DNA from: Anaerocolumna aminovalerica
GTDB taxonomy: Bacteria; Bacillota; Clostridia; Lachnospirales; Lachnospiraceae
NCBI RefSeq assembly: GCF_900115365.1
Contig: NZ_FOWD01000041.1
Span: 1-35,799 of the forward strand
Length of the DNA: 35,799 nucleotides
Direction of reading: 5' to 3'
The position numbers and the translations under genes are program-made. Within the stretch, counting starts at the first letter, position 1. Each line of letters begins with the position of its first letter. Below are positions 7,705 through 31,500 of this stretch, one piece after another. The notes beneath the pieces were generated by a model. It was not told the origin of the DNA. It ran no database searches and saw only the letters and a program-made list of their open reading frames with translations.

Positions 7705-7711
7705 GAGGATG

Positions 7712-12828: not shown

Positions 12829-12856
12829 ATAAGCTATACATAAGGATTAAAGTAAT

Positions 12857-13873
12857 ATGGAGGGTATGATGGGCGGAGAAAGAAAAAAATTATTCCAAAT
12901 AGGTAATAAAGGGTTCTCTTTAGTGGAACTTCTGGTTGGTATAGCAATTATTGCTCTTGTCTTCGGCCCTATACTAAAGAATTTTCTTGCCTCAGCCAGA
13001 GTGAATGCAAAAGCAAGAAAAGTACAACAAGAAACTATCCTGGCACAGAATATTGTGGAAGATGTAAAAGCAAAAACCATTCTTGAAATTGCATCCACCT
13101 ATAATGATAATACAATTGTTCATGATGATAAAACAATCTACACTAAGAAGCTGGTTCAGGATGGAAAGAATAAATATGATGTACAAATAACCATTGATAA
13201 GGATGTTTACAAAGACGTCAATTCTGATGGTGATCTGACAGGTTATAATAATTATAAAATGCCTGTTATTAATGATATTAATGAAATGAAGAATGTAATA
13301 GCCACAGAGAACCGTGAAACATCCATGGCAATTTCAGTATTACATAATAATTACAGATGGTACCGGGAACAGAGGAAAACCGATACAGGATATACAGTTG
13401 GTGAGTATTCGGAAGATGACATTAGAACGAATCTAACCCGGGACATACAGGTTAATATCAAGAATCTAAGCGGAAACATTGAAGTCAGAGTGGAGGCAGT
13501 ATATACCTGCGGAGCCGTTCCCGGAAGCGGCATTGAAAGCTATGTTCTCAAAGAAACAGACTATAATAGTGATATGAATGGAATCTATGTTTTCTATAGA
13601 CCTATCATCCGTGATAAAGTTACGATACATAAAGATAGTACTATAACAGATACCATTGACTTATTTCTTGTCAGTCAAGACACCAGCTATGGAATTATAG
13701 TGGATAATCCTGACTTTGTTCCTATTTATAATAATGTATCATTAACCAGCCCTTTGGTTAAGAAAGAGACTAAAACCAGGTTGTATGATGTTACCGTAAA
13801 ATTATTTTCGGCAGGTGCGGATTATGATACCGCTGCTCCCTGTGTAACCTTTCATATAATAAAGGAGGAATAA
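12857..13873 (+). CDS. Minor pilin (PilV-like), 338 residues
   Basis: A class III signal is clear: IGNKG (Gly19), then FSLVELLVGIAIIALVFGPI with Glu at +5. At 338 residues it is much longer than the major pilin and is probably a minor or tip-complex subunit. Residues about 120-131 (DVNSDGDLT) resemble a calcium-binding loop of the D-x-N-x-D-G type, although the usual acidic residue at position 12 is Asn. Three in-frame ATGs (12857, 12866, 12869) compete; AAGGA at 12842 serves the first and GGAGGG at 12859 the third. The choice does not affect the mature protein. Confidence 0.82.
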   Translation: MEGMMGGERKKLFQIGNKGFSLVELLVGIAIIALVFGPILKNFLASARVNAKARKVQQETILAQNIVEDVKAKTILEIASTYNDNTIVHDDKTIYTKKLVQDGKNKYDVQITIDKDVYKDVNSDGDLTGYNNYKMPVINDINEMKNVIATENRETSMAISVLHNNYRWYREQRKTDTGYTVGEYSEDDIRTNLTRDIQVNIKNLSGNIEVRVEAVYTCGAVPGSGIESYVLKETDYNSDMNGIYVFYRPIIRDKVTIHKDSTITDTIDLFLVSQDTSYGIIVDNPDFVPIYNNVSLTSPLVKKETKTRLYDVTVKLFSAGADYDTAAPCVTFHIIKEE

Positions 13874-13876
13874 TTT

Positions 13877-15988
13877 ATGAGGAAAGACAGGCATTATTTT
13901 ATAAATAATGAAGGTTCTGCTATGATTATTATAATTGTATGTATTGCTTTTCTTACGATTATATCTTCTTTATTACTGACCATAACATGGAATCATATTC
14001 AAATGAAGAGTATAAATCAGAAATCAAAGGCAAATTTTTATGAAGCAGAAACTGCTTTAACAGAGATTCGGGCAGGAATTGAAGAAGTTACTGCTGATTC
14101 ATTAGAGATAGCTTACAATGTGGCAATGGAGAATTATCTGAATGAGACCATAGATAAAGAAAACCTGTTCTCACAGACTTTTATTAACGAGATTGCAAAG
14201 AAACTAGGAGATGGTATTGATCTAACCACTTATGAGCCTGCAACAATCCGGGGATACATAAAGGAACCTAATGCCATGTTAACAACCAATGCTGACATGG
14301 GTGAAAATAAAATAGTAATAGATGGAGAGAATCCAAGTAAACCGGGATACATTATTATAAAGAACATAAAGCTAAGTTACATAAACAGTGAGAATTATAA
14401 AACAACCTTGTCCACCGATATAAAAATTATGGTTCCTGACATGGCTTTTCACGCCTACAATAGCGGTACCAACGTATTTGCTGACTATGGCCTCATAGCG
14501 GATCATAGTATATCTCTTAATACGGTTAATAATGTTAAAGTATATGGAAATGTTTACGCCGGTAATGGGGGAATCATTCTGGAGAATGCCTCCTTTCTCA
14601 CCATGGGGCGGGGGAGTAATATTATAACAAGAGGAAATATTGATGTTAAGAATCGCAGTAACCTGCAGATTCTTGATAATCCAAATATATGGGCAAAGAA
14701 TATTACCACATTCCAGAATATAAATGCCGGTACGGAAATGCCCACCACTATTCAGATCAGTGGTAAATGTTATGTGGAAAACGATCTGACACTTGGGGCA
14801 AAGAAAAGTGATGTTACTTTATCCGGTGAATATTATGGATATGGAAATGAGCATATTCCTGATAAAAGCAGTGCAGTTATAATAAATGGGCTTAAATCAA
14901 CCCTTAATTTATCAAATCTGAAACGATTACTTATAGCAAGAAGAGCTTATCTTAACCCAAGTACCGGCGGCAATGAATATAATGAAAACCTTCAGGGGGA
15001 TATTTGGACAGGGGAGTCTTTGGCAATAAAAGGGAATCAATATGCCTATTTGGTACCAAGTGAATGTTTATGGCAGGACATTGATTCCAATTCAGCAGAA
15101 CCTAAGAATGTAGGGAATCCGGTATCCTATGATAAATACTTACGAAGAAAAAATAAAACGGACGGTTTAGGGGACGCTCCCATGGTTTCATTAGCTCCAG
15201 AGATTGCCTGCTATGCCAATGGCTACACTACCATATTCTATAATCATGGACCCCGTAAAGAGGTATTCTTTTTCCTTACATTTGCTAACGAAGAGAAAGT
15301 CAATGAATTTCTGAAATACTATTACAGACAACAACAATTAGACGAAGAAAGCAAGATGGAGACAAGGATTAAGAGTTTTGCAGGCAGTATATCAATAAAT
15401 ACCGAATCCTCATGGATTATGTCTCCGGGGCATCTGCTTACGTACCAAGAGGAAAGCGGTGCGGGGCTTGTGGAGGGTACTGTCACACCGGATGGAAGTA
15501 CAATACAGTCTATAGCGGATCAATTAAAGGAAAGATATAAGATATTGTCTCAGGAACTTTCGGAGCCACACTTGAGAGCTGTATATGACCCTGCCTCAGT
15601 ATTCCGATCTATTATAGACATTTCAAAGATTTTACCATTCACAGATCAAGTTTATACCATAGACAGCAATCATAAAGCTTATGTTGTAGATGGTGATTTT
15701 ATCACAACTTCGGGTATGCAAGGAATTGTTGTTGCAACTGGGAATGTAGTTGTTAATGGCAGCTTCACCGGATTAATCCTGGCTGGAGGAGACGTCAGTC
15801 TTTCAGCGGGATCCACAGTAACGGCTTCAAAACAGGTTGTAAATACTATAATTAATAAAAACACGGAATTAAATACTATTTTTAGAAATTTAGTGGTGAA
15901 TGAGGATGGTTCTAACTTGGGAGATAATAGCCGGATCATAGTATCTGAGTTAATCGGTTATGAAAACTGGAAATTGAATGAAGAATAA
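13877..15988 (+). CDS. Very large PilX-like minor pilin / pilus-associated protein
   Basis: A 703-residue protein. The N-terminus (FINNEGSAMIIIIVCIAFLT) has the PilX-like shape, a short polar leader followed by a hydrophobic helix, and could be cleaved after Gly13, but it lacks the Glu at +5 found in its neighbours. Residues about 200-330 are rich in short alternating strands with Asn/Gly turns (KVYGNVYAGNGGIILENA, NITTFQNINAGTE), suggesting a beta-helix. A similar stretch recurs near the C-terminus (VVATGNVVVNGSFTGLILAG). PilX-type proteins are usually below 250 residues, so the extension may be an adhesive or ligand-binding domain. It starts 3 nt after the previous stop, with RBS AAAGGAGG. 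Confidence 0.7.
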   Translation: MRKDRHYFINNEGSAMIIIIVCIAFLTIISSLLLTITWNHIQMKSINQKSKANFYEAETALTEIRAGIEEVTADSLEIAYNVAMENYLNETIDKENLFSQTFINEIAKKLGDGIDLTTYEPATIRGYIKEPNAMLTTNADMGENKIVIDGENPSKPGYIIIKNIKLSYINSENYKTTLSTDIKIMVPDMAFHAYNSGTNVFADYGLIADHSISLNTVNNVKVYGNVYAGNGGIILENASFLTMGRGSNIITRGNIDVKNRSNLQILDNPNIWAKNITTFQNINAGTEMPTTIQISGKCYVENDLTLGAKKSDVTLSGEYYGYGNEHIPDKSSAVIINGLKSTLNLSNLKRLLIARRAYLNPSTGGNEYNENLQGDIWTGESLAIKGNQYAYLVPSECLWQDIDSNSAEPKNVGNPVSYDKYLRRKNKTDGLGDAPMVSLAPEIACYANGYTTIFYNHGPRKEVFFFLTFANEEKVNEFLKYYYRQQQLDEESKMETRIKSFAGSISINTESSWIMSPGHLLTYQEESGAGLVEGTVTPDGSTIQSIADQLKERYKILSQELSEPHLRAVYDPASVFRSIIDISKILPFTDQVYTIDSNHKAYVVDGDFITTSGMQGIVVATGNVVVNGSFTGLILAGGDVSLSAGSTVTASKQVVNTIINKNTELNTIFRNLVVNEDGSNLGDNSRIIVSELIGYENWKLNEE

Positions 15989-15999
15989 GAGGTGTAATT

Positions 16000-16491
16000 A
16001 TGGCGGATGGTAATAAGGGATATACACTGATTGAACTAGTCATAGCACTTGGAATATTTATAATCATCACATCAGGAGTCTTAATATTACTAAATGGAAT
16101 TGCCATGACAGATACTAAAGAAGCGGCGAAAAGTGTGGATGCAATTCTGGAAAAGCTGAGATTGGATACTATGGCAAAGGGTTCAAAATCTTATCTGCAT
16201 ATATATTATTATGGCAATGGAATTTATATGAAAGTATCCAATGAGCAGAATAGTGCTCTTGCAGAGTTGGATTCCGATTCCGGTAAAAGAATAGGCCGTA
16301 AAATGTCTGTTTACTATTGGGAAAATGGGGGTACAGAGAAGTTATTAGAAAGTGATGAGAGTATCGCAATCAGTTTTAATAGAAGTTCCGGTTCATTCTC
16401 ATCTAATTATAGCAGTATTAAATTCACGTATTCTAATCGAAGTTCGGTTATTAAATGTATAAAAGAGACAGGTAGGCATGAGGTAAATTAG
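16000..16491 (+). CDS. Minor pilin, 163 residues
   Basis: A very short leader, MADGNKG, precedes YTLIELVIALGIFIIITSGV, giving a class III cleavage site after Gly7 and Glu at +5. The remainder is a small soluble domain ending in a Ser-rich strand region (SSGSFSSNYSSIKFTYSN). RBS GAGGTG lies just after the preceding stop. It is presumed to join the initiating complex of minor pilins at the pilus tip; which GspH/I/J/K equivalent it represents cannot be decided here. Confidence 0.82.
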   Translation: MADGNKGYTLIELVIALGIFIIITSGVLILLNGIAMTDTKEAAKSVDAILEKLRLDTMAKGSKSYLHIYYYGNGIYMKVSNEQNSALAELDSDSGKRIGRKMSVYYWENGGTEKLLESDESIAISFNRSSGSFSSNYSSIKFTYSNRSSVIKCIKETGRHEVN

Positions 16492-16511
16492 GGAGAAAAG
16501 GGGGAATCCCT

Positions 16512-17018
16512 GTGACACAAAGAGAAAAAGACAATAGAGGCTTCACATTCATTGAACTGTTAACAGCTGTATCAATTTTGGCGATTGTTATGGTCTCTTT
16601 AGCTTTTATCATGAGTTATAGTTCCGGAAATTATAGAAATCTAAACGATGAAGTCATATTGCAGACAGAAGGGCAGATTATTATTAACCAAATAAATGGT
16701 CTGATCATTGAAGGGTATAATGTAAAGTTTAGTCCAAGTGGTGAACTTACAATATATCAGGAAGATGTTACCTATGTTATTCTCTTTGATACTATCAAAC
16801 ACCAGCTTGATTTTAAGAAATTTACCCCAGAGGGTATTCAGATTGGTAACAAAGAATTATTAGGTAAATATGTAGAAGAATTTCAAGTGGTGGATACTGG
16901 AGCTGATGATTCTAATAAACAAATCAAGGTATCTTTAAGCCTAAAAAAAGAAAAGAGTACCTTTCAACTAAAGAATCAGGTCATTACCTTAAGAAACAAG
17001 ATAAAACCTGTACCATAA
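16512..17018 (+). CDS. Minor pilin (PilW/GspJ-like), 168 residues
   Basis: Starts at GTG 16512, with a G-rich RBS (AAGGGGG) upstream. The leader MTQREKDNRG is followed by FTFIELLTAVSILAIVMVSL, with Glu at +5. The C-terminal domain (LTIYQEDVTYVILFDTIKHQLDF) resembles GspJ/PilW minor pilins, in which beta-strands pack on the helix. It lies between another minor pilin and the giant surface protein. The GspJ/PilW assignment is tentative; prepilin status is clear. Confidence 0.82.
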   Translation: MTQREKDNRGFTFIELLTAVSILAIVMVSLAFIMSYSSGNYRNLNDEVILQTEGQIIINQINGLIIEGYNVKFSPSGELTIYQEDVTYVILFDTIKHQLDFKKFTPEGIQIGNKELLGKYVEEFQVVDTGADDSNKQIKVSLSLKKEKSTFQLKNQVITLRNKIKPVP

Positions 17019-17036
17019 TGGAAGGAGGTTCATTCA

Positions 17037-20000
17037 TTGAAAAAATTGTTTGGAAAAATAAAAGAGTGTAGCTATATGAAGTCCTATAATGGTTTAAAAT
17101 ATACTTTCGTAACCGTACTGGTTCTTTCTCTTCTTCTCATTATGCCTCAAATAATAATGTGGGTACAGGCTGCAGTTATATCTAAAGGAGAAGCAGTTAC
17201 CGATTGGATTCCAAATCAATCCGGCGAAAAGGGGACGAAGAACAATCCATTTGTCATACTTGAGATTGTTCCTTATGAAGGATATGGAGAGATTGGATAT
17301 TTAATAGATGGATGTGAGCCAGTTGATATGGATAGGCTTCGTTACTCAGGTGATATGACAACGGTAACAGCAACTAAAGCCTCCTCTGCAGTTTGGGGCA
17401 TACAGTATCAATTTCCGGATGAGAAAGGGATTCCATCGGATTGGATTACCCAAAATGGTGAAAAGACATTGTACGGATATTATGAAAGAGTGGGAGAAAA
17501 TGAGGGACTATTTCAGGAAGTTGTTGATAAAGCAACGGGACAGGTCAATTACGTTAAAGTGGATAATGGGAATATAGTTTGGAAAACTGTTTTTGGTATG
17601 AGTGAGGAAAAAGTAGAGAATAAAAGAAAACTTGAGTTTATTGGTGATAAAGTCTATACAAGCCGAACAGATAATCAGTTTAAAAAAGGATATGCTTATG
17701 CTTATACTAATCATAATTATTTTTTAAAGGATGTATTAGAAGTTTCGGAAAATGATATAAAAGATTATCATATTTTAGTCAAAACCGTGGAACCAAAGGA
17801 TCTAAATGAGCAGCTGGAATGGATAGACAGAGCGGATTTAATATCTATTAGTCCCAAATCCCATATTGTTAATCTTCCTGAAATATGGGAAAAATATAAC
17901 CTTGCCGGTAAGCCGGCTAAACCCCACCCGTGGGATGGATTTGGCAATAACGATTTAAGCTGGGATGCAGTTGTCCGCATATTTAAGAAAGTAAATATTG
18001 AAAAAGATTATGGGGCTATTATATTTGATTGGACTGTGTACACAAATCCACCAACCAGCACAAGTAAACTGGTAACTCCTTACCAGACAGATTATTATGG
18101 AAATGGGACAAATCATACAAATGGAAGTGAATGGGGAAATTCCAATAATGTATATAAGTTAGCCTTGATGTCAAGAACCATGAATCCGGTTCTATTTTAC
18201 AATCTATTTCTAAATGAGAATCAAGAGGCATTAATAAAGAATGGAGCCTTCGTGAATCAAAAAGGGGACGGCAAAAATTATTGGTGTCAAAGTACCTTTA
18301 TGCCCACCCAAAAGGATGGTTCTCTGGCATGGGATGCCCATTGGGATACATTGTGGGAAAAATTTAGGCTAAATCCTTATATGAGTGGTAACGTAAGTGT
18401 TACAGGAAGAATTTATACTTATAATGGAGATTGCACTTTGTCACAAAATTTTGTGAATGATAAGATAGGTGAAACAAAATATACGGAAGATTTTTTTGAT
18501 TATTTGGAAGAGAAGAGAGAAAAAAATACCCCTGCTAATGCAATTAAATTTATTCTTGGTTCTCAAAGCCATGAGTCAGTTCAAGATATGCCCCTTAAGA
18601 TATTGAATATCGAACCGACCAATGAGTTTACACTAAACACATATAGATTGCGGGCTTTGTTACCTAATTATATTGGAAAAATAGATATTGTTCAAATGAC
18701 TTCTGCTGAATTTGTGGGCAAGATAGAAGATTTGAATAGTACTTATGATGGAATCTATCTTGGAATGAATTGTGGAGGATATAATACGAAATCCCAAAGA
18801 AATCCGGATTATGGAAAGAATTCGTCCAATGACCCACAGTACATAGATTTACCCTATTACAATGATAATCAACTTGATGGAAAGATTTATCTTCATGTTG
18901 GAGATTTGATCAAAGGTAACCGTTTTGAAGTAAATTGGCTTCCGGGAGGTACGAATACATCCACAAGGAATACTACAAGGATGCCAGGTAATGATATTAC
19001 AAAGCAGAAAAAAAACGAGCTGGCTGATTTTATAAAAGCAGGATACCCGGTATTGGTTGATTCTAAGCTGTATCATACAGGATCAGATCTGACAGAACTT
19101 GTAGTAGATAAAACATCAAATATATATGCCTTAATTAAAGAAAATAAAGAAAGAGCGAATCTGTTAAATATTGCAGAACTGCCTGTTAGGAACATCCAAA
19201 GTAAGATAAACACAGATAAACCAACTTTGTTGATTAACTCGGCTCCTACTCCCTACAAGGGCATATTCAATAATGGGACTATTAGTGCCGATAATTACAT
19301 TAATGGCAGTAATATTAATTTTAGAAACCTGGTATATAACTACACAATTCTTGAAAAGGATACTAGTAAAACCTTCCAGGTAAAACTCTATATTGATGCC
19401 AACTCAGACGGAAGATTTGACGAAACAGAACTTAATATGATTCAGACAGGAGTTACTCCAAACACACCACATAAACTAACCAAACGTTTAGCAATGGACT
19501 ACTTTGGAGTCATACCATGGAAACTGCAAATCGTTGATGAGAAGCAAACGGAAAATCGAGATGAGATTTCAGGTTTTTCAGCTGTAAAACGATCTGATTC
19601 TGAGAAAGAAACAATTCGTGTCCTACAGATTAACCAAAATGGCAGCAGTACTACATTAACCCTTCAAAATAATCCACAATTTCGTAAGTTTACGGAGAAT
19701 CTTAACGATTATAAAGTTATTTTTGAAACGAAGACCATCTTAGAATTTGAGAATATGTATTCAGGATATAATAATTATTTTGATATAACCTCAGAAGGAA
19801 CAAAAAAGAATACGGATAAATTAAAAAATTATAATATGTTGATTCTAGGTTTTAGTGATGTTTATGGACCCATAAAGAATGAATCTGCATTGAATAATAT
19901 AAAATATTTTATTGAAAAAGGAAAAAGTGTTCTCTTTACACATGATACTACTTCTTTTAATAATGAAAGTTCTCAGGCTAATGAGTTTGGATATTATTTT

Positions 20001-20942
20001 AATAAGGATTTTAGAGATATATTAGGAATGGATCGTTTTGGTGTACGAAATCCCGGTGGAGTACTAAAAGAATATAATGATATTCCAATGTCACCAACAG
20101 GAGTTTTGTATCCCCAGATTCACGGATACAATTCCTATGCCTTAAAAAGGATAGCAGATAATTATGTGAATCTAACATTTAAAGGATTAAGTCCAAGTGC
20201 TGACAATAATATAACAACAACGGTTACAAAACTGAACCAGGGACAGATTACCCAGTACCCTTATGTAATTGATGATACAATCAGTGTGGCAGATACCCAC
20301 GCACAATATTTTCAACTTAACTTAGAAGATCCAAGTATAGTTGTATGGTATTGTCTGGCTAAAGGAAACAGCGATGGAAGCACTGCTGATATATATGGTA
20401 TGTCACCAAATGATGCTTCCAGCTATTATTATATCTATAATAAAGGCAACATTACATACTCCGGTGTTGGACATTCTCCAGTTGGAAATAGTGAAATGGA
20501 GGTTAAGCTATTTGTTAACACCATGATAGCAGCTTACAAAGCATCCATTAAGCCCCCTATAATCCAGATTCTGAATGAAGAAGAATGCGTTTTTACCCCG
20601 GATGAAGTTTATGGAACAGATGATATTCTTGAAATTAAATTTATTCCATGGGATTTTAACCTATCCAGTCAGGAACTTGGTGTAAAAGTTCAGATTGCCG
20701 GAGGAGATAAGCTGGAAATATATGATAGGTATGGCAATAAGATGAATAGTGAGTTACTTGGTAAAGATGGTGAACGTTTAATAAAATTAGAAAATGGTAA
20801 CATTTATACCGCTCATTATAAAAGAAGCCTTTTTGCAGACGAGAAATATAGAAACATTCATTTCTATATTGAGAATAAGGCAGGTTATTATGGAGAAGAA
20901 GAACTGGAATTAAAGGAAAGAGTTTTATTTAATTTATATTAA
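17037..20942 (+). CDS. Giant surface protein of the pilus operon (DUF5057-like)
   Basis: A 1301-residue protein starting at TTG 17037, with AGGAGG 8 nt upstream. One membrane anchor or signal segment (FVTVLVLSLLLIMPQIIMWV, about 24-43) precedes a long extracellular part opening with NNPFVILEIVPYEGYGEIGY, the start I associate with DUF5057 proteins in clostridial pilus loci. A second copy-like start occurs near residue 520 (MPLKILNIEPTNEF) and a third near 865 (KETIRVLQINQNG), suggesting repeated Rossmann-like units that include NMLILGFSDVYGPI and FIEKGKSVLFTHDTTS. Residues 787-798 (DANSDGRFDETE) form a canonical EF-hand-type calcium loop. There is no cysteine pair or LPXTG anchor. The role is unknown; a pilus tip or substrate-binding adhesin is inference. 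Confidence 0.65.
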   Translation: MKKLFGKIKECSYMKSYNGLKYTFVTVLVLSLLLIMPQIIMWVQAAVISKGEAVTDWIPNQSGEKGTKNNPFVILEIVPYEGYGEIGYLIDGCEPVDMDRLRYSGDMTTVTATKASSAVWGIQYQFPDEKGIPSDWITQNGEKTLYGYYERVGENEGLFQEVVDKATGQVNYVKVDNGNIVWKTVFGMSEEKVENKRKLEFIGDKVYTSRTDNQFKKGYAYAYTNHNYFLKDVLEVSENDIKDYHILVKTVEPKDLNEQLEWIDRADLISISPKSHIVNLPEIWEKYNLAGKPAKPHPWDGFGNNDLSWDAVVRIFKKVNIEKDYGAIIFDWTVYTNPPTSTSKLVTPYQTDYYGNGTNHTNGSEWGNSNNVYKLALMSRTMNPVLFYNLFLNENQEALIKNGAFVNQKGDGKNYWCQSTFMPTQKDGSLAWDAHWDTLWEKFRLNPYMSGNVSVTGRIYTYNGDCTLSQNFVNDKIGETKYTEDFFDYLEEKREKNTPANAIKFILGSQSHESVQDMPLKILNIEPTNEFTLNTYRLRALLPNYIGKIDIVQMTSAEFVGKIEDLNSTYDGIYLGMNCGGYNTKSQRNPDYGKNSSNDPQYIDLPYYNDNQLDGKIYLHVGDLIKGNRFEVNWLPGGTNTSTRNTTRMPGNDITKQKKNELADFIKAGYPVLVDSKLYHTGSDLTELVVDKTSNIYALIKENKERANLLNIAELPVRNIQSKINTDKPTLLINSAPTPYKGIFNNGTISADNYINGSNINFRNLVYNYTILEKDTSKTFQVKLYIDANSDGRFDETELNMIQTGVTPNTPHKLTKRLAMDYFGVIPWKLQIVDEKQTENRDEISGFSAVKRSDSEKETIRVLQINQNGSSTTLTLQNNPQFRKFTENLNDYKVIFETKTILEFENMYSGYNNYFDITSEGTKKNTDKLKNYNMLILGFSDVYGPIKNESALNNIKYFIEKGKSVLFTHDTTSFNNESSQANEFGYYFNKDFRDILGMDRFGVRNPGGVLKEYNDIPMSPTGVLYPQIHGYNSYALKRIADNYVNLTFKGLSPSADNNITTTVTKLNQGQITQYPYVIDDTISVADTHAQYFQLNLEDPSIVVWYCLAKGNSDGSTADIYGMSPNDASSYYYIYNKGNITYSGVGHSPVGNSEMEVKLFVNTMIAAYKASIKPPIIQILNEEECVFTPDEVYGTDDILEIKFIPWDFNLSSQELGVKVQIAGGDKLEIYDRYGNKMNSELLGKDGERLIKLENGNIYTAHYKRSLFADEKYRNIHFYIENKAGYYGEEELELKERVLFNLY

Positions 20943-22282: not shown

Positions 22283-23518
22283 ATGAAGAAGAGAGGTCTA
22301 TGGACTAAGAATTTTAGCCTTATTACAATATCCACAATTTTATCTGCTATTGGCGGAGAAGCAATGAATTTACCAATCAGTCTTTTGGTCTTCGAGGAAA
22401 CAAAGTCTACTTTCATGGCAGCATTAATTATGATCTGCGGCATGCTACCGGATATTATTTTACCCATATTTCTGGCACCGATTATTGATAAAGGAACCAA
22501 AAAGAAATGGATTGTGGGACTGGATGTTCTTATGGCGGTTGTATATTTAATTATGGGGATATACACTTTAAAACATAAGTTTATATTTGCATTATATGCT
22601 ATATTTACACTGCTAATTGGAACTATATCCGTTTTTTACAGACTGGCTTATGATTCTTGGTATCCGGATTTAATTCCCGCTGGACATGAACAAAAAGGTT
22701 ATGCGGTAAGTGGAGGCATTTATCCTACTGTGACTATTATAATGGCACCTCTTTCAACTTACCTTTATGATAGAATGAATTTAGGATATATATTTATCCT
22801 TGTGGCTTTCATTGGTTTAGCAAGTGTTATCCTAGAAAGTATGATAACAGAAACGAAGCATGAGGCAGAAGGTACGTTAACCTGGGATATGTATAAACAA
22901 GATTTTCTGGAGGGATTTTCTTTTTTAAAGAAAGAAAAAGGTATCCGGAACATTTATACATATATGAGTATCACAAACGGTGCATCCCATGGTATAGGAG
23001 TGGTTACACAAGCTTTCTATCAAACACAGGCATGGCTTACGGTTACCATGCTTGGATTCTTAAAGAGCAGTGAAACAATGGGCAGAATTATTGGCGGTTT
23101 TGTTCAATACAATAAAGAAATACCTGTTAAGAAAAGATATGATTTTACTAAATTAGTATATTCTATTTATGATTTATTGGATTCTTTCCTGCTTTTCATG
23201 CCATATCCCGCAATGCTTATCAACCGGTTCCTTTGCGGAGTATTGGGTTCCCAAAGTGCAACCATCCGTTCCGCCGCCGTACAATCTTATTTACCTCCTG
23301 AAATGAGAGCAAGAGTAAATGCATTGTTTCATGTTATCTTCGCCATCGGAGGTATATTGTTTCAACTGCTGGCAGGATTATTAGGATTGTTCATACCTTA
23401 CAGATTAGTTGCTTTGTTTCTTGGTTTGGTGACGTTTCTCAGTATGATTTTATTTATTTGGCTGCCTAAGGAAGTAAATAGGAAAGTCTATGAAGCTACA
23501 AGAGAAGTGATTAAATAA
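22283..23518 (+). CDS. MFS transporter
   Basis: A 411-residue polytopic membrane protein with about 12 hydrophobic segments, for example ITISTILSAIGGEAMNLPIS and FAIGGILFQLLAGLLGLFIP. The loop after segment two (APIIDKGTKKKWIVGLDVLM) matches the MFS motif A region, typical of the MFS_3-like efflux group. The start is supported by GAGGAGAG upstream and by its own promoter. The substrate is unknown. The stop codon at 23516-23518 lies inside the first bases of palindromic repeat A; argH at 30127 ends in the same way at repeat C. Confidence 0.85.
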   Translation: MKKRGLWTKNFSLITISTILSAIGGEAMNLPISLLVFEETKSTFMAALIMICGMLPDIILPIFLAPIIDKGTKKKWIVGLDVLMAVVYLIMGIYTLKHKFIFALYAIFTLLIGTISVFYRLAYDSWYPDLIPAGHEQKGYAVSGGIYPTVTIIMAPLSTYLYDRMNLGYIFILVAFIGLASVILESMITETKHEAEGTLTWDMYKQDFLEGFSFLKKEKGIRNIYTYMSITNGASHGIGVVTQAFYQTQAWLTVTMLGFLKSSETMGRIIGGFVQYNKEIPVKKRYDFTKLVYSIYDLLDSFLLFMPYPAMLINRFLCGVLGSQSATIRSAAVQSYLPPEMRARVNALFHVIFAIGGILFQLLAGLLGLFIPYRLVALFLGLVTFLSMILFIWLPKEVNRKVYEATREVIK

Positions 23519-23975
23519 AAATTTGTTGCAGTAGGACGCTTTGCTCTGTAGTTTGTTGAGAACTCAGAAAGTGCTCATTAAAGCTTTCATAATGACTCAA
23601 TTTATATGTCAAGGATAACAGGGTATATATTATAAATTTTGCTACCTTACCCTGTCGGCCGGATTACGCAAAATTTATAATATACACCCTGTTATCCTAA
23701 TTTAGTTTATGAGAGTCATTATGAAAGCTCAATAAGTACTTTCTGATTTTAATTTATGTTGTGAAGCAAAGCTGTTTATGAAATAATTTTAATTATATCA
23801 ATCAAGTTTAAATATATTTATTATACTTAAGAAAATAAATTCTCTATCAGACAATAACTATTATTCTTTCCATATAAATAAAACAAATAGGTTCTCATTT
23901 CATATTATCTGTTTTAATAGTTTTAAATAATTCTATATCTATCTATATAAGTTTTAAATATCTATTCCAAAAGAA
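23513..23975 (-). repeat. Palindromic repeat element, copy A, with long flank
   Basis: The core palindrome spans about 23530-23775. The inner stem is 23613-23640 paired with 23670-23697 (28 bp, one G-T wobble on the minus strand); the loop is 23641-23669. The outer arms share CAGAAAGT and AGCTTTCATAATGACTC in inverted form. The orientation is opposite to copies B and C. The flank 23776-23975 matches the left flank of copy C. No coding frame is present. Confidence 0.9.
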
Positions 23976-24110
23976 TTAAAAGCCTTTTCGAAACCTCCAA
24001 AGTTCAATTTATACATTGAGGTAAAGTTGTGTATTGAAACTTGTATTTAATTTAGTGCTTTAATTAATATTAACAATTCATTTAGTATACCCATGGACTT
24101 GTGTCAATAA
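23976..24110. other. AT-rich spacer without a recognisable feature
   Basis: Lies between repeat A and the left end of the IS3-family remnant. I see no open frame, hairpin or promoter worth naming. Confidence 0.5.
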
Positions 24111-24764
24111 TGTAGACACAAAAAGTATAACTTTTGATGCCGCTTATGCTGCTTCATTAGCAGCCTTTGGAGTCAAATAATTAATGGTATCATGAATCCT
24201 TTTTCTGTTGTATCAGGATTCAATATATTCAAATACAGCCTTACGGGCAGCATTGAAATCATTGTATTTATGATGATTGATCTCTTCCTTTTTTAGCACG
24301 GAATGGAAGGATTCAATACATGCATTATCATAAGGATTTCCTTTTCGGCTAAAAGAATGAATAATACCTTTGAAAGACAGGTAATCCTCAAATATCCTAC
24401 TGGTATACTGTGTACCCAAATCGCTGTGCAGAATGATGCCTTCAATAACCTTTACATTTAAACATGCATTTTTAACTGCCTTCATAGCCAATTCGGCTGT
24501 CATGGAAGTATCATAGGCATAACCGATAGAGTTTATTTCTTCTTTTTCTGATACTTTAACTGGAGATAGCTGCTTAATCCAACTATAAATCCTTACATTT
24601 GTGACGCCATATTCATTTCTCAAGTAAGAAACTGAACTACCTGAATTATACAGATCTACAATCTGTTGTTTGAATTCTTCCGAATAATGAGTACCGTTCT
24701 TGGACATTGTTTAACACACCTTTCTATGAAACATTTTATCGTGTTAAACTTTTCGTGTCCATAC
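24111..24764 (-). mobile_element. Internally deleted IS3-family element
   Basis: Terminal inverted repeats are visible: TGTAGACACAAAAAGTATAA at 24111-24130 on one side and, as complement, TATGGACACGAAAAGTTTAA from 24764 downward on the other (about 16 of 20 match). The element is only about 650 bp, roughly half of a normal IS3 element. The missing half corresponds to the end of OrfA and the first half of OrfB, so it could move only if a full-length relative supplied transposase. Confidence 0.75.
24144..24707 (-). pseudogene. IS3-family transposase remnant: OrfA head fused to OrfB tail
   Basis: The open frame (24213-24707, 164 codons) begins like OrfA: THYSEEFKQQIVDLYNSG and YGVTNVRIYSWIKQLSP. 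After about residue 58 it jumps to the second half of OrfB: SMTAELAMKAVKNACLNV, HSDLGTQYTS (second catalytic Asp) and NPYDNACIESFHSVLKKEE (catalytic Glu). The first catalytic Asp region (DITYI) is missing, so the product cannot be an active DDE enzyme. The frame then hits TGA after EYIES, where relatives have Trp; reading on gives YNRKRIHDTINYLTPKAANE before TAA at 24144-24146. There are thus two independent lesions, an in-frame deletion and a nonsense change. Confidence 0.88.
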
Positions 24765-24843
24765 GTATATGCTAACACCATAAAATTAATATCATGAAGT
24801 AGTATGTACGTTTTATTTACTGGTTTGTAAAATAATCGTTAGT

Positions 24844-25087
24844 AACAGCTTTGCTGACAACATAAATTGAACTCAGAAAGTGCTAAATAAGCTTTCGTAA
24901 TGACTCTCATAAACTTTAAATTAGGATAACAGGGTGTATAGGATTGATTTTGCGTAATCCGGCCGACAGGGTAAGGTAGCAAAATCAATCCTATACACCC
25001 TGTTATCCTTGAACAATATAAATTGAGTCATTATAAAGCTTATAAAGCACTTTCTGAGTTCTTCACAAACTTCAGGGCAAAGCGTAC
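24844..25087 (+). repeat. Palindromic repeat element, copy B
   Basis: The inner stem 24924-24951 / 24981-25008 is 28 bp and perfect; the loop is 24952-24980, beginning GCGTAATCC and ending GGTAAGGTAGC. The outer arms GAACTCAGAAAGTGCT (24869-24884) and its complement (25046-25061) are a perfect 16 bp. It has the same orientation as copy C but lacks the long AT-rich flank shared by A and C. It lies about 80 bp from the IS3 remnant. Confidence 0.9.
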
Positions 25088-25307
25088 GTGCATTAATAAA
25101 CTAAATTTATTTGGCTACCTTATATTCATGAGGTATTCTGACATGCCTTGTCAGCCAGATCAGGTAGAAAATATAGACTTTTTTTCAATATAAAAATTTG
25201 CGGCTAAGTTCCTTTGCTGACTACATTTTAACAAGAAAAAGATTATTTTCTTGCTTTTCTTCGGTTGAACGAATACAATGTCGCTATATACATTGAGAGA
25301 ATGGGAA
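25088..25307. other. Non-coding leader region of the resistance operon
   Basis: No gene is seen. It contains a terminator-like hairpin, CAAGAAAA (25232-25239) / TTTTCTTG (25246-25253), followed by CTTTTCTT, and a candidate promoter, TTGAAC (25265-25270), 16 nt, TATACA (25287-25292). Together these would isolate the operon from upstream transcription and start its own. Confidence 0.4.
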
Positions 25308-25491
25308 ATGGAATATATTACTGTTCGGGAGCTGCAGAGAAATGGGGCATCACGGAGCATGGGTGCAGAAACTCTGTGAGGAATATAAAATTAAGGGCGT
25401 TGGTGCCTTCAGCCGGATATGGATGATACCGAAAAATGCGAAAAAGCCTGCAGACGGAAGATCAAAACTGGAAAGGAGTGCAAAAAAATGA
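25308..25491 (+). pseudogene. Frameshifted small HTH (excisionase-type) DNA-binding protein
   Basis: Three successive frames give one recognisable protein: MEYITVRE in the first, AEKWGITE in the second, and VQKLCEEYKIKGVGAFSRIW plus MIPKNAKKPADGRSKLE in the third. This is the common clostridial helix-turn-helix protein of about 65 residues (YITVREAAEKWGI-type), broken by two single-base losses, near 25336 and near 25358. Its stop TGA (25489-25491) overlaps the response-regulator ATG (25488) as ATGA, so the intact gene was probably once translationally coupled to the two-component system. Sequencing error is possible but would need two events within about 25 bases. Confidence 0.75.
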
Positions 25492-26189
25492 ATGAAAAAA
25501 TTTTAATAATAGATGATGATGTTGACCTATGTAAATTACTTAAAAAAAACTTAGAAACAGAAGGGTACCAGGTTACTGTATGCCATGACGGAGAAAACGG
25601 CATATTGGAGGCTGATAAAAACAGCTATCATCTGATAGTTTTGGATATCATGCTTCCTAAGAAAAGTGGGTTTGATGTTTTATACGATATCAGAAAAACA
25701 AACCTTGTTCCCATTTTAATGCTGACAGCTAAGGACAGCGAAGCAGATAAGGTGTCCGGACTACGGATGGGAGCAGATGATTACCTTACCAAACCTTTTA
25801 GCAACAATGAATTTTCCGCTCGAGTTGCTTCTCTTTTACGAAGATATACTGTTTTCAGTTCAAATAATGAACATTTTGAGCCCGCCATCGACATAGGAAA
25901 TCTTCACATCGACATCTCTAAGCATGAAGTAAGTATGAATGGTATAACAATTGACTTGACTGCAAAAGAATTTGATTTACTGCATTTTTTTGCCCAAAAC
26001 CAAGGAAAGGTATTCACTAAAAAACAGATTTATCGTGGGGTATGGGATGACGAATATGCTTTTGACGATAACAATATCATGGTGCATATACGCAGGCTGC
26101 GTAAAAAAATTGAGCCAGACCCAGAAAATCCAACTTATATTTTAACTGTTTGGGGTGTTGGATATAAATTTGTTGGTGATAGTGTATGA
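25488..26189 (+). CDS. OmpR-family response regulator of the resistance cassette
   Basis: 233 residues. The receiver domain has the acidic cluster DDD (9-11), phospho-acceptor Asp53 in VLDIMLP, the Thr/Ala switch in LMLTAKD and Lys102 in LTKPF. The C-terminal winged helix (about 130-230) includes LTAKEFDLLHFFAQNQGKVF and VHIRRLRKKIEP, typical of OmpR/PhoB and VanR-like regulators. The frame is open further upstream, but AAAGGAG at 25472-25478 supports ATG 25488. Its stop overlaps the kinase start (ATGA at 26186). It is expected to activate the transporter and UppP genes on cell-envelope stress; that target is inferred from gene order. Confidence 0.9.
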   Translation: MNEKILIIDDDVDLCKLLKKNLETEGYQVTVCHDGENGILEADKNSYHLIVLDIMLPKKSGFDVLYDIRKTNLVPILMLTAKDSEADKVSGLRMGADDYLTKPFSNNEFSARVASLLRRYTVFSSNNEHFEPAIDIGNLHIDISKHEVSMNGITIDLTAKEFDLLHFFAQNQGKVFTKKQIYRGVWDDEYAFDDNNIMVHIRRLRKKIEPDPENPTYILTVWGVGYKFVGDSV

Positions 26190-27100
26190 CAGCAGTTGTA
26201 ATTGTAATTCTTTTCTGCCTTTGTTCTGGACAATTTCTTTATATAAGACGCATAAAAAAGCAGGAACAAGATTGGCTTAATATACTGCGTGGTATTCAGG
26301 GTGGGGAGCGTGACAAGCTTTTTGCAAAGGGTAATGGACAAATAGCGGACATTAGCTATGAACTTAATAAAATTATAGATACCAACCTAATTCAGATTGC
26401 ACAGCTTAAAAAAGCGGATGAGGCAAATAAACAGATTTTAACGGGGCTTTCCCATGATGTAAGGACTCCTCTTGCTTCTCTCCTTGGTTATCTGGAGGCG
26501 CTTCAAAAAGGTTCTCTGGATGAAGTAGAGAAACAGGAATATCTTGAAGTAGCTTTTCGCAAAGCAAATGATTTAAAAGCTTATGTAGATATGCTATTTG
26601 AGTGGTTTAAACTCAGCTCCAATGAACAGCAGTCTGTAATTGAAACGGTTGATATCAATGAGCAAACTCGTGAAATTATAATTGAGTGGCTGCCGGTATT
26701 GGAACAGTCAAATATCGCTCTGTCCGTAAACATTAGAGATGAAGATCTACCGGTGTCTATTGACCGAATGGCATACAGCCGTATATTGAATAACCTGATG
26801 CAAAACGCTATTCAGCACAGCCATTGTACACAAATATCCATTATCATTAGACAGGATGTAAACAGGGTGCTTATTTCTGTTGTCAATAATGGACAAATCA
26901 TACCCGAAGATCAGTTACCGCATATATTTGAACGTTTGTACAAAGGCGATCGTGCCCGTACAGGGAAAGGCAGCGGGCTGGGGCTTGCTATTACTAAAGA
27001 ACTGGTGACCAATTTACACGGTGAAATCTCTGTATCCAGTACACAAAATGAGGGAACAAAATTTCAAATCAGCCTTCCTATCCAAGTAAGGAAAAAGTAA
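26186..27100 (+). CDS. Sensor histidine kinase of the resistance cassette
   Basis: A 304-residue kinase with one N-terminal membrane segment (VVIVILFCLCSGQFLYI) and almost no extracellular part, so any signal is likely sensed in or near the membrane or through the partner transporter. The H-box GLSHDVRTPLASLLGYLEAL has His90. The ATPase domain shows the N-box (NLMQNAIQHSH), a degenerate G1 with VNNGQIIPEDQLPHIFERLY, and GSGLGLAITKEL. It overlaps the response regulator by 4 nt. Similar small kinases accompany bacitracin and lantibiotic transporters in Firmicutes. Confidence 0.88.
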   Translation: MTAVVIVILFCLCSGQFLYIRRIKKQEQDWLNILRGIQGGERDKLFAKGNGQIADISYELNKIIDTNLIQIAQLKKADEANKQILTGLSHDVRTPLASLLGYLEALQKGSLDEVEKQEYLEVAFRKANDLKAYVDMLFEWFKLSSNEQQSVIETVDINEQTREIIIEWLPVLEQSNIALSVNIRDEDLPVSIDRMAYSRILNNLMQNAIQHSHCTQISIIIRQDVNRVLISVVNNGQIIPEDQLPHIFERLYKGDRARTGKGSGLGLAITKELVTNLHGEISVSSTQNEGTKFQISLPIQVRKK

Positions 27101-27163
27101 GATTTAAGAAAGACCTGTGTCAGCTTTCATTGATAAAATAAAATGGAAAGGAGGCAATTCAAT

Positions 27164-28087
27164 ATGAATGATTATGTAATTGAAACTGTCGGACTGACAA
27201 AACAGTATGGTATGCAGTTCGGAGTAAATGATTTATCACTCCATGTTCCAAAAGGAAAAATATACGGCTTACTTGGCAGAAATGGAGCAGGCAAAACAAC
27301 TACAATGCGGATGCTCCTAAATCTGATTCGTGCAACAAGTGGAACAATCCAATTGTTTGGTAAGGATTATCTTGAAAATCCAAATAAGATCTATCGAAAA
27401 ATCGGCTCTATCATTGAAAGCCCCGGATTTTATGAGAATTTGACCGGACAAGAAAATCTGCAAATTCTTGCTCGTCTCCGTGGACAGCATCGCAAGGACT
27501 CAGTACAGCAAGCACTTGAAATTGTTGGGCTGGATATAGAAAACAGAAAAGTGTATTCACACTATTCTATGGGAATGAAACAAAGGCTTGGAATTGCCGC
27601 CGCCATTATGCATGAGCCGGAGCTACTAATATTGGACGAGCCAATCAACGGACTTGACCCTATTGGAATCCATGAAATACGCAAATTTTTATTAAGTCTC
27701 TGCAAAGAAAAAGGAGTTACGGTTCTCATATCCAGTCATGTTTTGGACGAGATTGAGCAGATTGCAGATATGATCGGTGTGATGCATGAGGGACGTTTGA
27801 TAGAAGAAGTATATATGGACGAGTTGCGCCGCCGGAATCGCCAGTATGTGGAGTTTGAAGTTTCGGATGTAAATAACGCAGCGGTGCTTTTAGAGAGGCT
27901 TTTTGATATCTCCGATTATGAGGTCTGTGATGACAAAACGATACGAGTTTTTGAACGTATTGAGCATAGGGGTGAGATCACCCGCCAGTTTGTACAAAAA
28001 GACATCTTAGTAACAAAGGTGCAGATAAGCTCCGAGAAACTGGAAGACTATTTTTCTACCCTGATTGGAGGTGGTGGCATTGGCTAG
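27164..28087 (+). CDS. BcrA-like ABC transporter ATPase
   Basis: A 307-residue ATPase of the BcrA/LanF type. Walker A GRNGAGKTT (38-46), signature SMGMKQRLGIAAAI (from about 134), Walker B LLILDEP (Asp near 158) and switch SSHVLDEIEQIAD are all present. A C-terminal extension of about 80 residues (EFEVSDVNNAAVLLERLFDI) is usual in this family. RBS AAAGGAGG (27147-27154) supports ATG 27164 over the earlier in-frame ATG at 27143. It is encoded upstream of a small permease and UppP, the order of bacitracin-resistance loci. Lantibiotic immunity remains an alternative. Confidence 0.85.
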   Translation: MNDYVIETVGLTKQYGMQFGVNDLSLHVPKGKIYGLLGRNGAGKTTTMRMLLNLIRATSGTIQLFGKDYLENPNKIYRKIGSIIESPGFYENLTGQENLQILARLRGQHRKDSVQQALEIVGLDIENRKVYSHYSMGMKQRLGIAAAIMHEPELLILDEPINGLDPIGIHEIRKFLLSLCKEKGVTVLISSHVLDEIEQIADMIGVMHEGRLIEEVYMDELRRRNRQYVEFEVSDVNNAAVLLERLFDISDYEVCDDKTIRVFERIEHRGEITRQFVQKDILVTKVQISSEKLEDYFSTLIGGGGIG

Positions 28088-28829
28088 CCTTATCTGCTGT
28101 GAGCTTTTGAAGCTCAAACGGGCAAAAATACTTTTAATCAGCTTTTTGGGAGCTATGGCTACACCGTTTATGATGTTTATAGAAGCCTTGCAAACACACT
28201 TCGAGCATCCGGAACAGGTAATTAGGCTAGTTGATTTATATGATAGTAGTTTAGTTTATGTTATGTTGCTGATGAACATGATGGTTTATGTGATTATTTC
28301 AGCCTATTTGTTCAGCCGTGAATATACAGAAAAGACCTTAAAAATGATATTGCCTGTACCCATTTCAAAAACAAAATTTATTGCTTCTAAATTTATCATT
28401 TTATTTCTTTGGATTATGGTGCTAACTATTACCACATGGGCAGGTATCTTGCTTTCGGCGGCACTTTACCATGTAATTTTTGGTATGACAGGATTCGTAT
28501 TTGAAATTGCCTTGGAGTGGCTTGGCATAATGTTAGTCAGCGGCGTTCTGATGTTTTTGACCATATCTCCATTTTCATATTTAACAGTAAAAGCGAAAAA
28601 CTTGGTTACACCAATGATTGCTGCCGCCGCCATCGTGATGGGTAGCGCCGCTTTATCCAATCAAGAATTAGGTGCCCTATATCCTTGGACAGCGACATAC
28701 TTTCTCCTCAAAGGAAAGCTTGCAAGTACGGGTTATCCCCCATCACTAGCCATTGTTATCATCGCCTTGGTGTCCATCCTTGGATTCTTAACCACATTTG
28801 TTTATTTCAAAAAGGAGGATATTAAGTAA
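28080..28829 (+). CDS. BcrB-like ABC transporter permease
   Basis: A permease of about 249 residues with six hydrophobic segments, including [18 protein letters not shown] and [21 protein letters not shown] cytoplasmic stretch ([20 protein letters not shown]) is characteristic of ABC-2 permeases of the BcrB/LanE type. TTG 28080 is preferred as start because GGAGG (28067-28071) lies 8 nt upstream; it overlaps the ATPase end by 8 nt. With the ATPase it would form an exporter that clears bacitracin or a similar peptide from lipid targets. Confidence 0.82.
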
Positions 28830-29671
28830 TGGAATTAGATTTTATAGAAATACTAAAAGTCATTTTTCTTGGCATTGTTGAGGGAATTACGGAGTGGCTG
28901 CCTATCAGCAGCACGGGTCATATGTTGCTTGTGGATGAATTCATTAGTCTGAACATGAGTGATGCCTTTAAGGAAATGTTCTTTGTGGTTATACAACTTG
29001 GTGCCATTCTTGCGGTTGTGGTTATGTTTTGGAAAAGTATGTTTCCCTTTCAATTTAAAGATAAAACACAACCTGTAATTAAAAAGGACACTTTTTCCTT
29101 ATGGTTTAAAGTAGTAGTTGCCTGCATACCGGGAGCTGTCGTTACACTGCTTTTTGACAATTACATTGAGGCACATTTGCATACGCCAGTTGTGATTGCG
29201 GCAGCTTTGATTTTTTACGGTGTAGCATTTATCGTGATAGAAACATGGAATAAAAAGCGTGTTCCCGGTGTTGACAAGTTATCTGAAATTACCTACCAGA
29301 CCGCGCTCTTAATTGGATTGTTTCAGGTGTTGTCAATCATACCAGGCACGTCCCGATCTGGCGCAACCATCATTGGTGCATTGTTGATTGGTGTGTCACG
29401 TGTTGCAGCTGCAGAATTTACATTTTTTCTTGCCGTGCCGGTCATGTTTGGATTAAGTGCAATCAAACTAATTAAATTTGGCTTTGATTTTACCGGTGGG
29501 GAATTATTTACCTTGGGACTTGGCATGGCGGTTGCGTTCTTTGTATCTGTCCTTGTGATTAAGCTTCTTATGGGATATATTAAAAAGCATGATTTTAAGG
29601 TGTTTGGATGGTATCGTATTGTTCTTGGTATCACTGTTCTACTTATATTTGCAGGGCGACAATTTGTCTAG
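28829..29671 (+). CDS. uppP: Undecaprenyl-diphosphate phosphatase UppP (BacA/BcrD type)
   Basis: A 280-residue membrane phosphatase converting undecaprenyl pyrophosphate to the monophosphate carrier for peptidoglycan synthesis; extra copies confer bacitracin resistance because bacitracin binds the pyrophosphate form. The two active-site motifs are intact: [14 protein letters not shown] (residues 18-31) and PGTSRSGAT (172-180). About eight membrane segments occur. The start overlaps the permease stop as TAATG. Being encoded behind a BcrAB-like transporter and a two-component system, it is more likely a dedicated resistance copy than the housekeeping one. Confidence 0.93.
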
Positions 29672-29689
29672 CCAGACGGCGGTTTTTTC

Positions 29690-30132
29690 TTTTGAAAAAT
29701 AGATTAATGTAGATAGATATAGAAATTTTTAAAGGTATTAAAACAGATAATATGGGATGAGAACCTATGTTTTTATATGGAAAGACTAATTGATTACTGG
29801 AAGAGGACTAAGTATAATTAATATATTTAAATTTGATTAATGAAAGTAAATTATTTCATAAACAGCTTTGCTTCTCAAATAAATTAAATCAGAAAGTACT
29901 TATTAAAGCTTTCGTAATGACTCTCATAAACTAAATTAGATAACAGGGTGTTTATTATAAATTTTGCGTAATCCGGCCGACAGGGTAAGGTAGCAAGATT
30001 TATAATAAACACCCTGTTATCCTTGAATATATAAATTAAGTCATTATGAAAGCTTTAATGAGTACTTTCTGATTTCCAACAAACTACAGAGCAAAGCGTC
30101 CTACAGCGTCCTACTACAACAAATTTTTATTT
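29690..30132 (+). repeat. Palindromic repeat element, copy C, with long flank
   Basis: The core palindrome spans about 29861-30109. The inner stem 29938-29965 / 29995-30022 has one G-T wobble and one mismatch at its base; the loop 29966-29994 is identical to that of B. The left flank 29690-29860 matches, in inverted form, the outer flank of copy A. The right end carries a tandem duplication (GCGTCCTACA then GCGTCCTACT, 30097-30116) that copy A has only once. It ends at the argH stop codon. Confidence 0.9.
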
Positions 30133-31500
30133 TGTCAAATATTCCTCATTGATAGTAATGACTTTTTCCATTGCTTCTTTTCCAGGGGCTCCAATGGTAT
30201 TGCGTTTCCCGACACAGGTTTCTAAACTGATAGCATCATAAATATCATTTTCAAAGACAGGACAAATTTCTTTGTATTCAGTTATGGTCAACTGATCTAG
30301 GGAGATGCCTTTAGTAATACAATATAAAACCAGTTGCCCAACAATGCCATGGGCATCCCGGAAAGGTACACCTTTGTTTACCAGATAATCAGCTGCATCC
30401 GTTGCATTGGTAAAGCCATTTTTGGCACTGGTTTCCATAGCAGATTTATTGAATTTCATGGTAGAAATCATTCCGGTAAACAGGGCAATACAGCCTTTTA
30501 CTGTATCAATGGCATCAAAGGTCAATTCTTTATCTTCCTGCATGTCTTTATTGTATGCAAGAGGAAGGCCTTTCATGGTGGTTAGAAGGGAAACTAAAGC
30601 ACCATATACGCGTCCTGTTTTTCCTCTTATTAATTCTGCTATGTCCGGATTCTTTTTTTGGGGCATAATACTGCTTCCTGTGGAGTAGGAATCATCCAGC
30701 TCTACAAACTGGTATTCATTGGTATTCCATATGATGATTTCTTCACAAAAACGGCTTAAATGCATCATAATTATAGATAAGCTGCTTAAGAATTCGATTA
30801 AATAATCTCTGTCGGAGACGGAATCCATACTATTTAAAGTAGGTCCGTAAAAATCCAGCAAACTGGAAGTATATTCACGGTCAAGAGGATAGGTAGTACC
30901 TGCCAGTGCCCCGGAACCGATAGGTGAATAATTCATTCGTTTATAAATATCATCTAGTCTGGAACGGTCTCTTTTAAACATCTCAAAATAAGCCCCCATA
31001 TGATGGGCCAAGGTAATTGGCTGGGCTTTTTGCAGATGTGTAAAGCCGGGCATATAGGTGTTAAGATTATCTTTCATAATTTCATGAAGTACTGTTAATA
31101 AATCCTTTAAGAGCAGATTTATTTTAACAACCTCATCTCTTGTATATAATTTCATATCTAATGCAACTTGGTCGTTGCGGCTTCTTCCTGTGTGAAGTTT
31201 TTTTCCTGTATCCCCGATTCGCTCTATTAAATTAGCTTCAACAAAACTGTGAATATCTTCCTGGCTACCATCAATGACTAAAGTACCTTTCAGAATATCT
31301 TCCTTAATACTATTTAAACCTAGTATAATAGAACTTTTCTCGGCACCTGTTAAGATATTCTGTTCTGCCAGCATGGTTACATGGGCAATACTTCCTTCAA
31401 TATCCTCTTTGAAGAGTTTTTGATCAAAGGATATAGATGCATTAAAATTATGAACCAGTTGATTGGTTTCCTTTGTAAAACGGCCGCCCCAAAGTTTCAT
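30127..31500 (-). CDS. argH: Argininosuccinate lyase ArgH
   Basis: 457 residues, normal for the family. It cleaves argininosuccinate to arginine and fumarate, the last step of arginine synthesis. The start [20 protein letters not shown] and the fumarase/lyase signature [12 protein letters not shown] (about 274-285) are intact, as is the region [12 protein letters not shown]. The frame is open further upstream, but GAGG in the leader is 8 nt from the ATG at 31500 and only 2 nt from the ATG at 31506, so 31500 is preferred. argG is not nearby. The stop codon abuts repeat C. Confidence 0.93.

Follow-up and report, generated by a model that had tools for sequence, protein, structure and literature searches.

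Long palindromes of Anaerocolumna aminovalerica as probable ends of non-autonomous mobile elements

A stretch of 35,799 nucleotides from Anaerocolumna aminovalerica (contig NZ_FOWD01000041.1; the whole stretch is the window below) carries three long palindromes, A, B and C, with stems that differ and a loop that does not. An earlier note, made from the sequence alone, took them for a family of three elements under selection for an RNA fold or for a DNA hairpin recognised by a protein, and cautioned that template switching can also keep such palindromes perfect. What are these palindromes, and what keeps their arms complementary? The copies, their outer tips and the unit delimited by two of them are located as follows.

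23513-23790, plus strand: copy A, left hairpin end of a complete unit, type 1, with a truncated core
23612-23642 and 23668-23698, plus strand: arms of the inner stem of A, enclosing the loop (31 nt, 97% complementary)
24828-25085, minus strand: copy B, right hairpin end of the unit A-B; arms at 24923-24953 and 24979-25009 (31 nt, 100%)
29700-30132, minus strand: copy C, left-arm-type end, inverted, abutting argH; arms at 29939-29967 and 29993-30021 (29 nt, 97%)
23513-23528, plus strand: AT-rich outer tip AAATAAAAATTTGTTG, with the stop codon of a major facilitator superfamily (MFS) gene (23516-23518) inside
30117-30132, minus strand: identical AT-rich tip on the far side, with the argH stop codon (30127-30129) inside
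23512-25110, no strand assigned: complete unit A...B, the right tip near 25110 being approximate

The arm coordinates bear out the description of three palindromes with a fixed loop, the inner arms measuring 29-31 nt. The arms are 25 nt apart as scored, or 29 nt with the closing GC/GC counted, and the three loops are identical once A is reverse-complemented. By eye, five variable stem positions in the window change jointly on both arms, and the two stem imperfections, in A and C, are G-T in the B/C orientation, as had been claimed. For A and C this orientation is antisense to entry from the neighbouring genes, and in the direction of entry the imperfections read A-C. Each palindrome is bigger than first described, forming a hairpin of about 240-270 nt which opens at GGACGCTTTGC and closes at GCAAAGCTG. 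Copy A folds at -100.6 kcal/mol, against a mean of -50.8 for shuffled sequences (z -11.2; 0 of 200 shuffles equal it). In the unit alignment C is matched over 29700-30107, its tip reaching 30132.

The reading favoured here, with a probability of roughly 0.78, is that A, B and C are ends of non-autonomous palindromic transposons, of the kind of miniature inverted-repeat transposable elements (MITEs) or mobile insertion cassettes, with stems maintained as DNA. Searched with 251 bases of A, the A. aminovalerica genome yielded 80 matches, one palindrome often matching on both strands; the 80 were taken as first-look candidates, and 40 were scored. In the loci fetched around the matches 42 ends were listed. 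Ten inverted pairs of ends have a spacing of 0.5-1.2 kb and two pairs are longer (A-B in the window, and one in locus L035), while many unpaired ends lie at contig edges. The numerous ends in inverted pairs identify A, B and C as ends of repeated units, which in this genome are about 0.9 kb long and non-coding, with inverted hairpin ends. A-B aligns with two other complete units, C with their left arm only and in the opposite direction. By this alignment A is the left end and B the right end of one unit, and C is the left arm of another, inverted. The three copies of the earlier note are real, and belong to a far larger family made up of the ends of mobile elements.

Movement is best seen in a relative with a complete genome, Anaerocolumna AGMB13025, where hairpin ends of the type GATTTGAGAGTCAAAAGC gave 43 matches at no more than 3 mismatches and the reversed control gave 0. 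Both ends could be read in 13 elements, nine with a structured core (251-252 bp) and four coreless (92-96 bp). Exact direct repeats of 6-7 bp flank nine of the 13, including three of the four coreless ones, which indicates that the elements transpose and that the core is dispensable for movement. The family is mobile, on the evidence of target duplications in AGMB13025, and of structure and copy number in A. aminovalerica. As in MITEs, the GATTTGAGAGTCAAAAGC elements of 252 bp and 92-96 bp are short and non-coding, have inverted ends and are associated with target duplications.

Ends may also bracket genes. A second cargo unit of the A. aminovalerica genome has this composition:

L081, 6912-9003: core end, NUDIX hydrolase gene, coreless hairpin end

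It is flanked by tex-like and aspartate kinase genes (by eye). In Mobilisporobacter senegalensis a pair of ends surrounds a piece of a gene named by eye as GrpB-like. In the window, genes of a two-component system, an ABC transporter and UppP/BacA lie between B and C. The NUDIX unit and the window cargo thus consist of passenger genes between inverted repeats, with no transposase of their own.

The invariance of the loop finds an explanation in the core. Type-1 loops number 27 in the fetched loci of A. aminovalerica, 23 of them identical. At seven other ends of the same genome a structured core of about 115 nt replaces the type-1 loop, and two further cores are known, one cut by a contig end, the other shortened. 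What the type-1 loop retains of this core is its two rims. By this comparison the 29-nt loop is identifiable as a deletion remnant of the core, and it is fixed because it is a truncated relic of something longer.

A covariance model built from eight cores, used in genome searches with strict filters, found the core in three of 397 genomes of the bacterial family, A. aminovalerica included, and in one of 299 genomes of the phylum, again A. aminovalerica. A permissive search gave 44 matches in A. aminovalerica (some on both strands), 12 in M. senegalensis and 62 in [Clostridium] fimetarium. A DNA pattern scan of named genomes, in which 80 of 81 stretches were examined, identified as carriers C. 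fimetarium, M. senegalensis, strains and metagenome-assembled genomes (MAGs) of Anaerocolumna, Lachnoclostridium UBA1308 and a Herbinix MAG; matches in Methylobacterium and Halorubrum look like chance. The motifs CCTTwCCyTC, AGCCTC, GAGTCT and TCrGCCGG hardly vary between genera. Of 32 pairs predicted in an alignment of 56 cores, 25 show changes on both sides with pairing retained in at least one sequence. Paired cells amount to 92.9%; shuffled alignments give 74.6%, and displacing one strand by 1-3 columns leaves 33-39%. The effect is large, even allowing for the relatedness of the sequences and for the advantage that a structure has when tested on the alignment that produced it. The covariation is real, and beyond the three copies it extends to a conserved core spanning several genera. 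The exact core pattern is absent from viral contigs, and copy A has no blastn match in plasmid and phage collections, so that neither a viral nor a plasmid or phage origin was retained. In C. fimetarium two copies stand in tandem (L089:5191-5605), their starts 263 nt apart and with a spacer in common.

The same core resides under at least three kinds of terminal repeat. Ends of the type GACGCTTTGC are found in the genome of the window, in most M. senegalensis copies and in two contigs of uncultured Anaerocolumna, ends of the type GTGAGTGAATATTAATTT in most C. fimetarium copies, GATTyGAG-type ends in other Anaerocolumna and UBA1308, and other types in Herbinix and a few M. senegalensis copies. 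Among the best matches listed, related ends exceed the control 101 to 14 and 88 to 8 in two other Anaerocolumna genomes and 66 to 5 in UBA1308; M. senegalensis is not enriched in AGMB13025-type ends (9 vs. 10 in the control). GATTyGAG ends host a second, different structured core as well. This second core was observed in Anaerocolumna hairpin elements with GATTCGAG-type ends (L233:2263-2532, L231:3499-3771 and L228:19434-19696); the L233 copy has no Rfam match up to E 5. Short tandem repeats (ataaaag, gccaaaa, aagcataaagac) follow several hairpins in C. fimetarium, as if added at insertion, and the repeated unit changes from place to place (L082:7880-7990, L085:6362-6470, L092:4540-4649, L088:5937-6046).

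Near-invariant motifs shared by several genera under different terminal repeats could mean that the core is a signal at the level of DNA: extruded as a hairpin or folded as a single strand, it would, by analogy with attC sites, be recognised by a transposition or replication protein; the lack of an RNA strand signature in the core, reported below, would agree with this. We consider it somewhat unlikely, as three of the four coreless derivatives have target duplications, and type-1 ends, which keep only the core rim, reach 27 in the fetched loci.

Functional RNA helices tolerate G-U pairs, and mostly do not tolerate A-C. In the outer stems of 109 copies G-U mismatches are 86 and A-C 68 (34 and 38 in A. 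aminovalerica, 36 and 16 in the named genomes). In a test on five groups, comprising 80 copies with A. aminovalerica left out and scored on consensus folds restricted to Watson-Crick pairs, the totals are 74 and 61 (53 and 29 in outer stems, 21 and 32 in the core). The alignment of 56 cores gives 33 and 46, and nine tRNAs from the same loci, taken as control, 17 and 0. Because the copies depend on one another and misalignment accounts for some of the mismatches, the counts show a leaning and fall short of proof; yet G-U and A-C being similarly common, unlike in tRNAs, maintenance of the stems at the DNA level is favoured over selection on an RNA fold. Of the two kinds of selection offered by the earlier note, the RNA fold is disfavoured by these counts and the DNA hairpin fits better, as does the template switching it warned of. 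For the core, its RNA interpretation is possible, and not favoured by the strand test.

This rival and the others weighed here concern the maintenance of the fold, and are compatible with mobility. In its fullest form the RNA explanation holds that the palindromes are functional structured RNAs in 3' untranslated regions (UTRs), serving 3'-end protection, processing or regulation, and spread as mobile units. A conserved and covarying core, the G-U excess of the outer stems in the five groups and the sense placement described below are all in its favour. We hold it to be unlikely nonetheless, since the core in general, and the outer stems in A. aminovalerica, show no G-U excess, unlike tRNAs, and the window copies lack most of the core. 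The window has 0 Rfam matches at gathering level, and the 13 matches (12 + 1) of core loci up to E 5 are all under the gathering score: the families are microRNAs, matched by the long stems (best score 40 bits vs. a cut-off of 180, E 5.5e-6), and one CRISPR-repeat family (E 0.53); a known RNA family was discarded on these grounds. Over 23400-30300 neither promoters (25 vs. 25.0 expected) nor intrinsic terminators (1 vs. 4.6 expected, in a scan covering loops of 3-8 only) are in excess.

The unclear strand signature would equally suit pairing as a by-product of template switching, in which one arm serves repeatedly as template for the other and the fold is not under selection. C. fimetarium copies are complementary from one side to the other even in DNA lying outside the shared unit (mean score 10.2 for own sides, 7.0 for swapped sides; 0 of 5000 permutations; n=31). 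Copying between arms would produce this, and nested units may account for a part of it; in AGMB13025, where only 2 copies are usable, nothing was seen. Copying between arms leaves the near-invariant motifs of the core unexplained, as well as the bulges and internal loops that its helices keep, and template switching as the whole explanation is tentative, at less than even odds. Complementarity of outside DNA across the same copy was observed at L100:4265-4419 with its flanks, and at other C. fimetarium copies.

Elements of this family land at the ends of genes. For 40 of the 42 A. aminovalerica ends we looked for an open reading frame (ORF) of at least 100 codons stopping within 160 nt, the control being random non-coding positions of the same loci, element DNA not excluded. 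Such an ORF is faced by 25 of 40 ends, vs. 780 of 3360 random positions (Fisher p 1.6e-7), and its stop codon falls within the outermost 30 nt in 21 of the 25, vs. 174 of 780 (Fisher p 2.4e-10). The tip AAATAAAAATTT contains a TAA which, at a number of ends including A and C, is the stop codon of the gene, and the element may therefore supply it. Of the C. fimetarium copies 31 of 35, and of the M. senegalensis copies 9 of 12, follow a gene in the sense direction, the L081 copy being placed otherwise. In a partly overlapping set of 89 distinct copies, two chance hits included, 63 of the 82 with an upstream ORF are sense and 19 antisense, and 7 have no upstream ORF; where the neighbouring genes run in the same direction, 42 copies are sense and 14 antisense.

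A copy follows a gene ending in ITGLF, by eye formate-tetrahydrofolate ligase (fhs), both in M. senegalensis (L072:6246-6399) and in C. fimetarium (L086:3247-3398). Comparison of sense upstream proteins all against all gave two weak pairs only (27% and 33% identity), the M. senegalensis fhs copy falling outside the pattern; chance suffices for the repeated position, and conservation at the same gene was dismissed.

Several observations weigh against mobile ends with DNA-maintained stems. Four of the 13 AGMB13025 elements lack an exact duplication. In A. aminovalerica the target duplications are ambiguous, with 8 bp at L032, no clear one at several units and, on both sides of A...C, AAATTT as the best candidate; TAA, by eye, lies on both sides of the L081 cargo unit. 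The core is conserved though movement does not need it, which implies some further function. The outer stems outside A. aminovalerica lean to G-U, and the sense-strand bias after genes towards an RNA role. The solo and distant ends inspected revealed neither an autonomous element nor a transposase bounded by them, in a partial search by short motifs which covered the matches listed and part of the A. aminovalerica ends and used an end pattern that did not fit those of M. senegalensis. A 6.9-kb pair of ends in L225 was set aside as an autonomous element, as it encloses ordinary genes (by eye). The Y1/RAYT transposase domain PF01797 was found in one of seven carrier genomes, that of A. aminovalerica, and in none of the six others, and a RAYT was rejected as the shared mobiliser. 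The Y1-type matches occupy 17 places in A. aminovalerica (C27, C55, C50, C7, C13, contig tips), many at contig ends.

The elements would work as follows. Each end is a long hairpin with a short terminal motif as its foot, and in a unit two of these hairpins are opposed, with non-coding DNA between them. Ends can enclose passenger genes, an arrangement seen directly, and the genes may move with them. A putative transposase acting in trans probably moves the units; its targets would be AT-rich sites at stop codons or immediately beyond them, of which 6-7 bp are duplicated, the placement and the duplication being observed. The stems would stay complementary mainly through DNA, by arm-to-arm copying at replication or by recognition of the DNA hairpin, and the 29-nt loop would be what deletion left of the conserved core. 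If so, insertions of a palindromic mobile family landing at stop codons should be nearly harmless, a conserved core independent of its ends calls for a protein, of the host or of the transposon, able to read it, and strong stem covariation with no clear RNA strand signature should caution those who search mobile repeats for RNAs by covariation. A more ambitious version, that three or more sets of transposon ends, unrelated to one another, have carried a conserved folded core, read as DNA by a protein or as RNA in 3' UTRs, within a modular, trans-mobilised system landing at gene 3' ends and taking passengers, is doubtful.

Known systems offer partial parallels. The bcr1-bcr3 repeats of the Bacillus cereus group are described in the sections consulted as short, non-coding, hairpin-forming and MITE-like, present in tens of copies, about half of them transcribed, often within UTRs (PMC3446304, PMC6542083, PMC2267715). 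This family resembles them in being short, hairpin-forming, MITE-like and non-coding and in having tens of copies; the bcr repeats are reported in those sections from the B. cereus group only, whereas here a core is common to several genera, terminal repeats differ and ends bracket cargo. The repeats of mobile insertion cassettes are short. In such cassettes, as described in the part of the source consulted, inverted repeats enclose passengers with no transposase inside (MIC231 of IS231; the qnrD mic), a layout shared by the L081 and M. senegalensis cargo units (PMC3913671). The ends of the present family are, in contrast, hairpins of about 250 nt, and the window cargo has a complete unit on one side and a single arm on the other. 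Repetitive extragenic palindromic (REP) sequences are intergenic palindromes of 20-40 bp, often in inverted pairs. REP and REPIN palindromes are moved by RAYT (Y1) transposases (PMC3733652). Location between genes and inverted pairing are shared with REPs, but the hairpins are about 250 nt here, and Y1 matches are limited to A. aminovalerica among the seven carriers searched. Integron cassettes have one attC each and form tandem arrays. The likeness to integrons lies in folded ends beside small passengers (NUDIX, GrpB-like), the difference in two inverted ends with target duplications. The family is not named in the titles and abstract openings examined, which, as subscription literature falls mostly outside them, is weak evidence of absence.

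The remaining features of the locus are an insertion in the unit A-B and the passenger genes:

24095-24773, minus strand: decayed IS3-family insertion in the unit A-B, 679 bp; its ORF (24213-24707) partially matches an IS3 transposase model
25488-26189, plus strand: OmpR/VanR-type response regulator, assigned at family level, under curated cut-offs
26186-27100, plus strand: sensor histidine kinase, assigned at family level, under curated cut-offs
27164-28087, plus strand: ABC transporter ATPase; nearest NCBIfam model lantibiotic protection, under its cut-off
28065-28829, plus strand: ABC-2 permease
28829-29671, plus strand: undecaprenyl-diphosphate phosphatase (UppP/BacA)

The unit in L028 aligns to 23512-24094 and 24774-25085 of the window. 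Sets of two-component, ABC and UppP genes often protect against bacitracin-like peptides. Eleven relatives that possess an orthologue of argH (75-84% identity) keep the order argH-M32 peptidase. In the roughly 1.5 kb flanking argH in these relatives, neither the MFS gene nor the cargo operon was found, except for an ABC ATPase match of 53 residues at 43% (L237), nor were the core, the type-1 loop or the end motif. The absence of the cargo beside argH suggests that the B-C segment is probably an arrival at this locus, and the transposon ends proposed here suggest how the two-component/ABC/UppP cluster came to lie next to argH. Farther upstream, at 4919-20942 of the window, ORFs read by eye form a type IV pilus-like cluster with assembly and retraction ATPases, prepilins and a prepilin peptidase.

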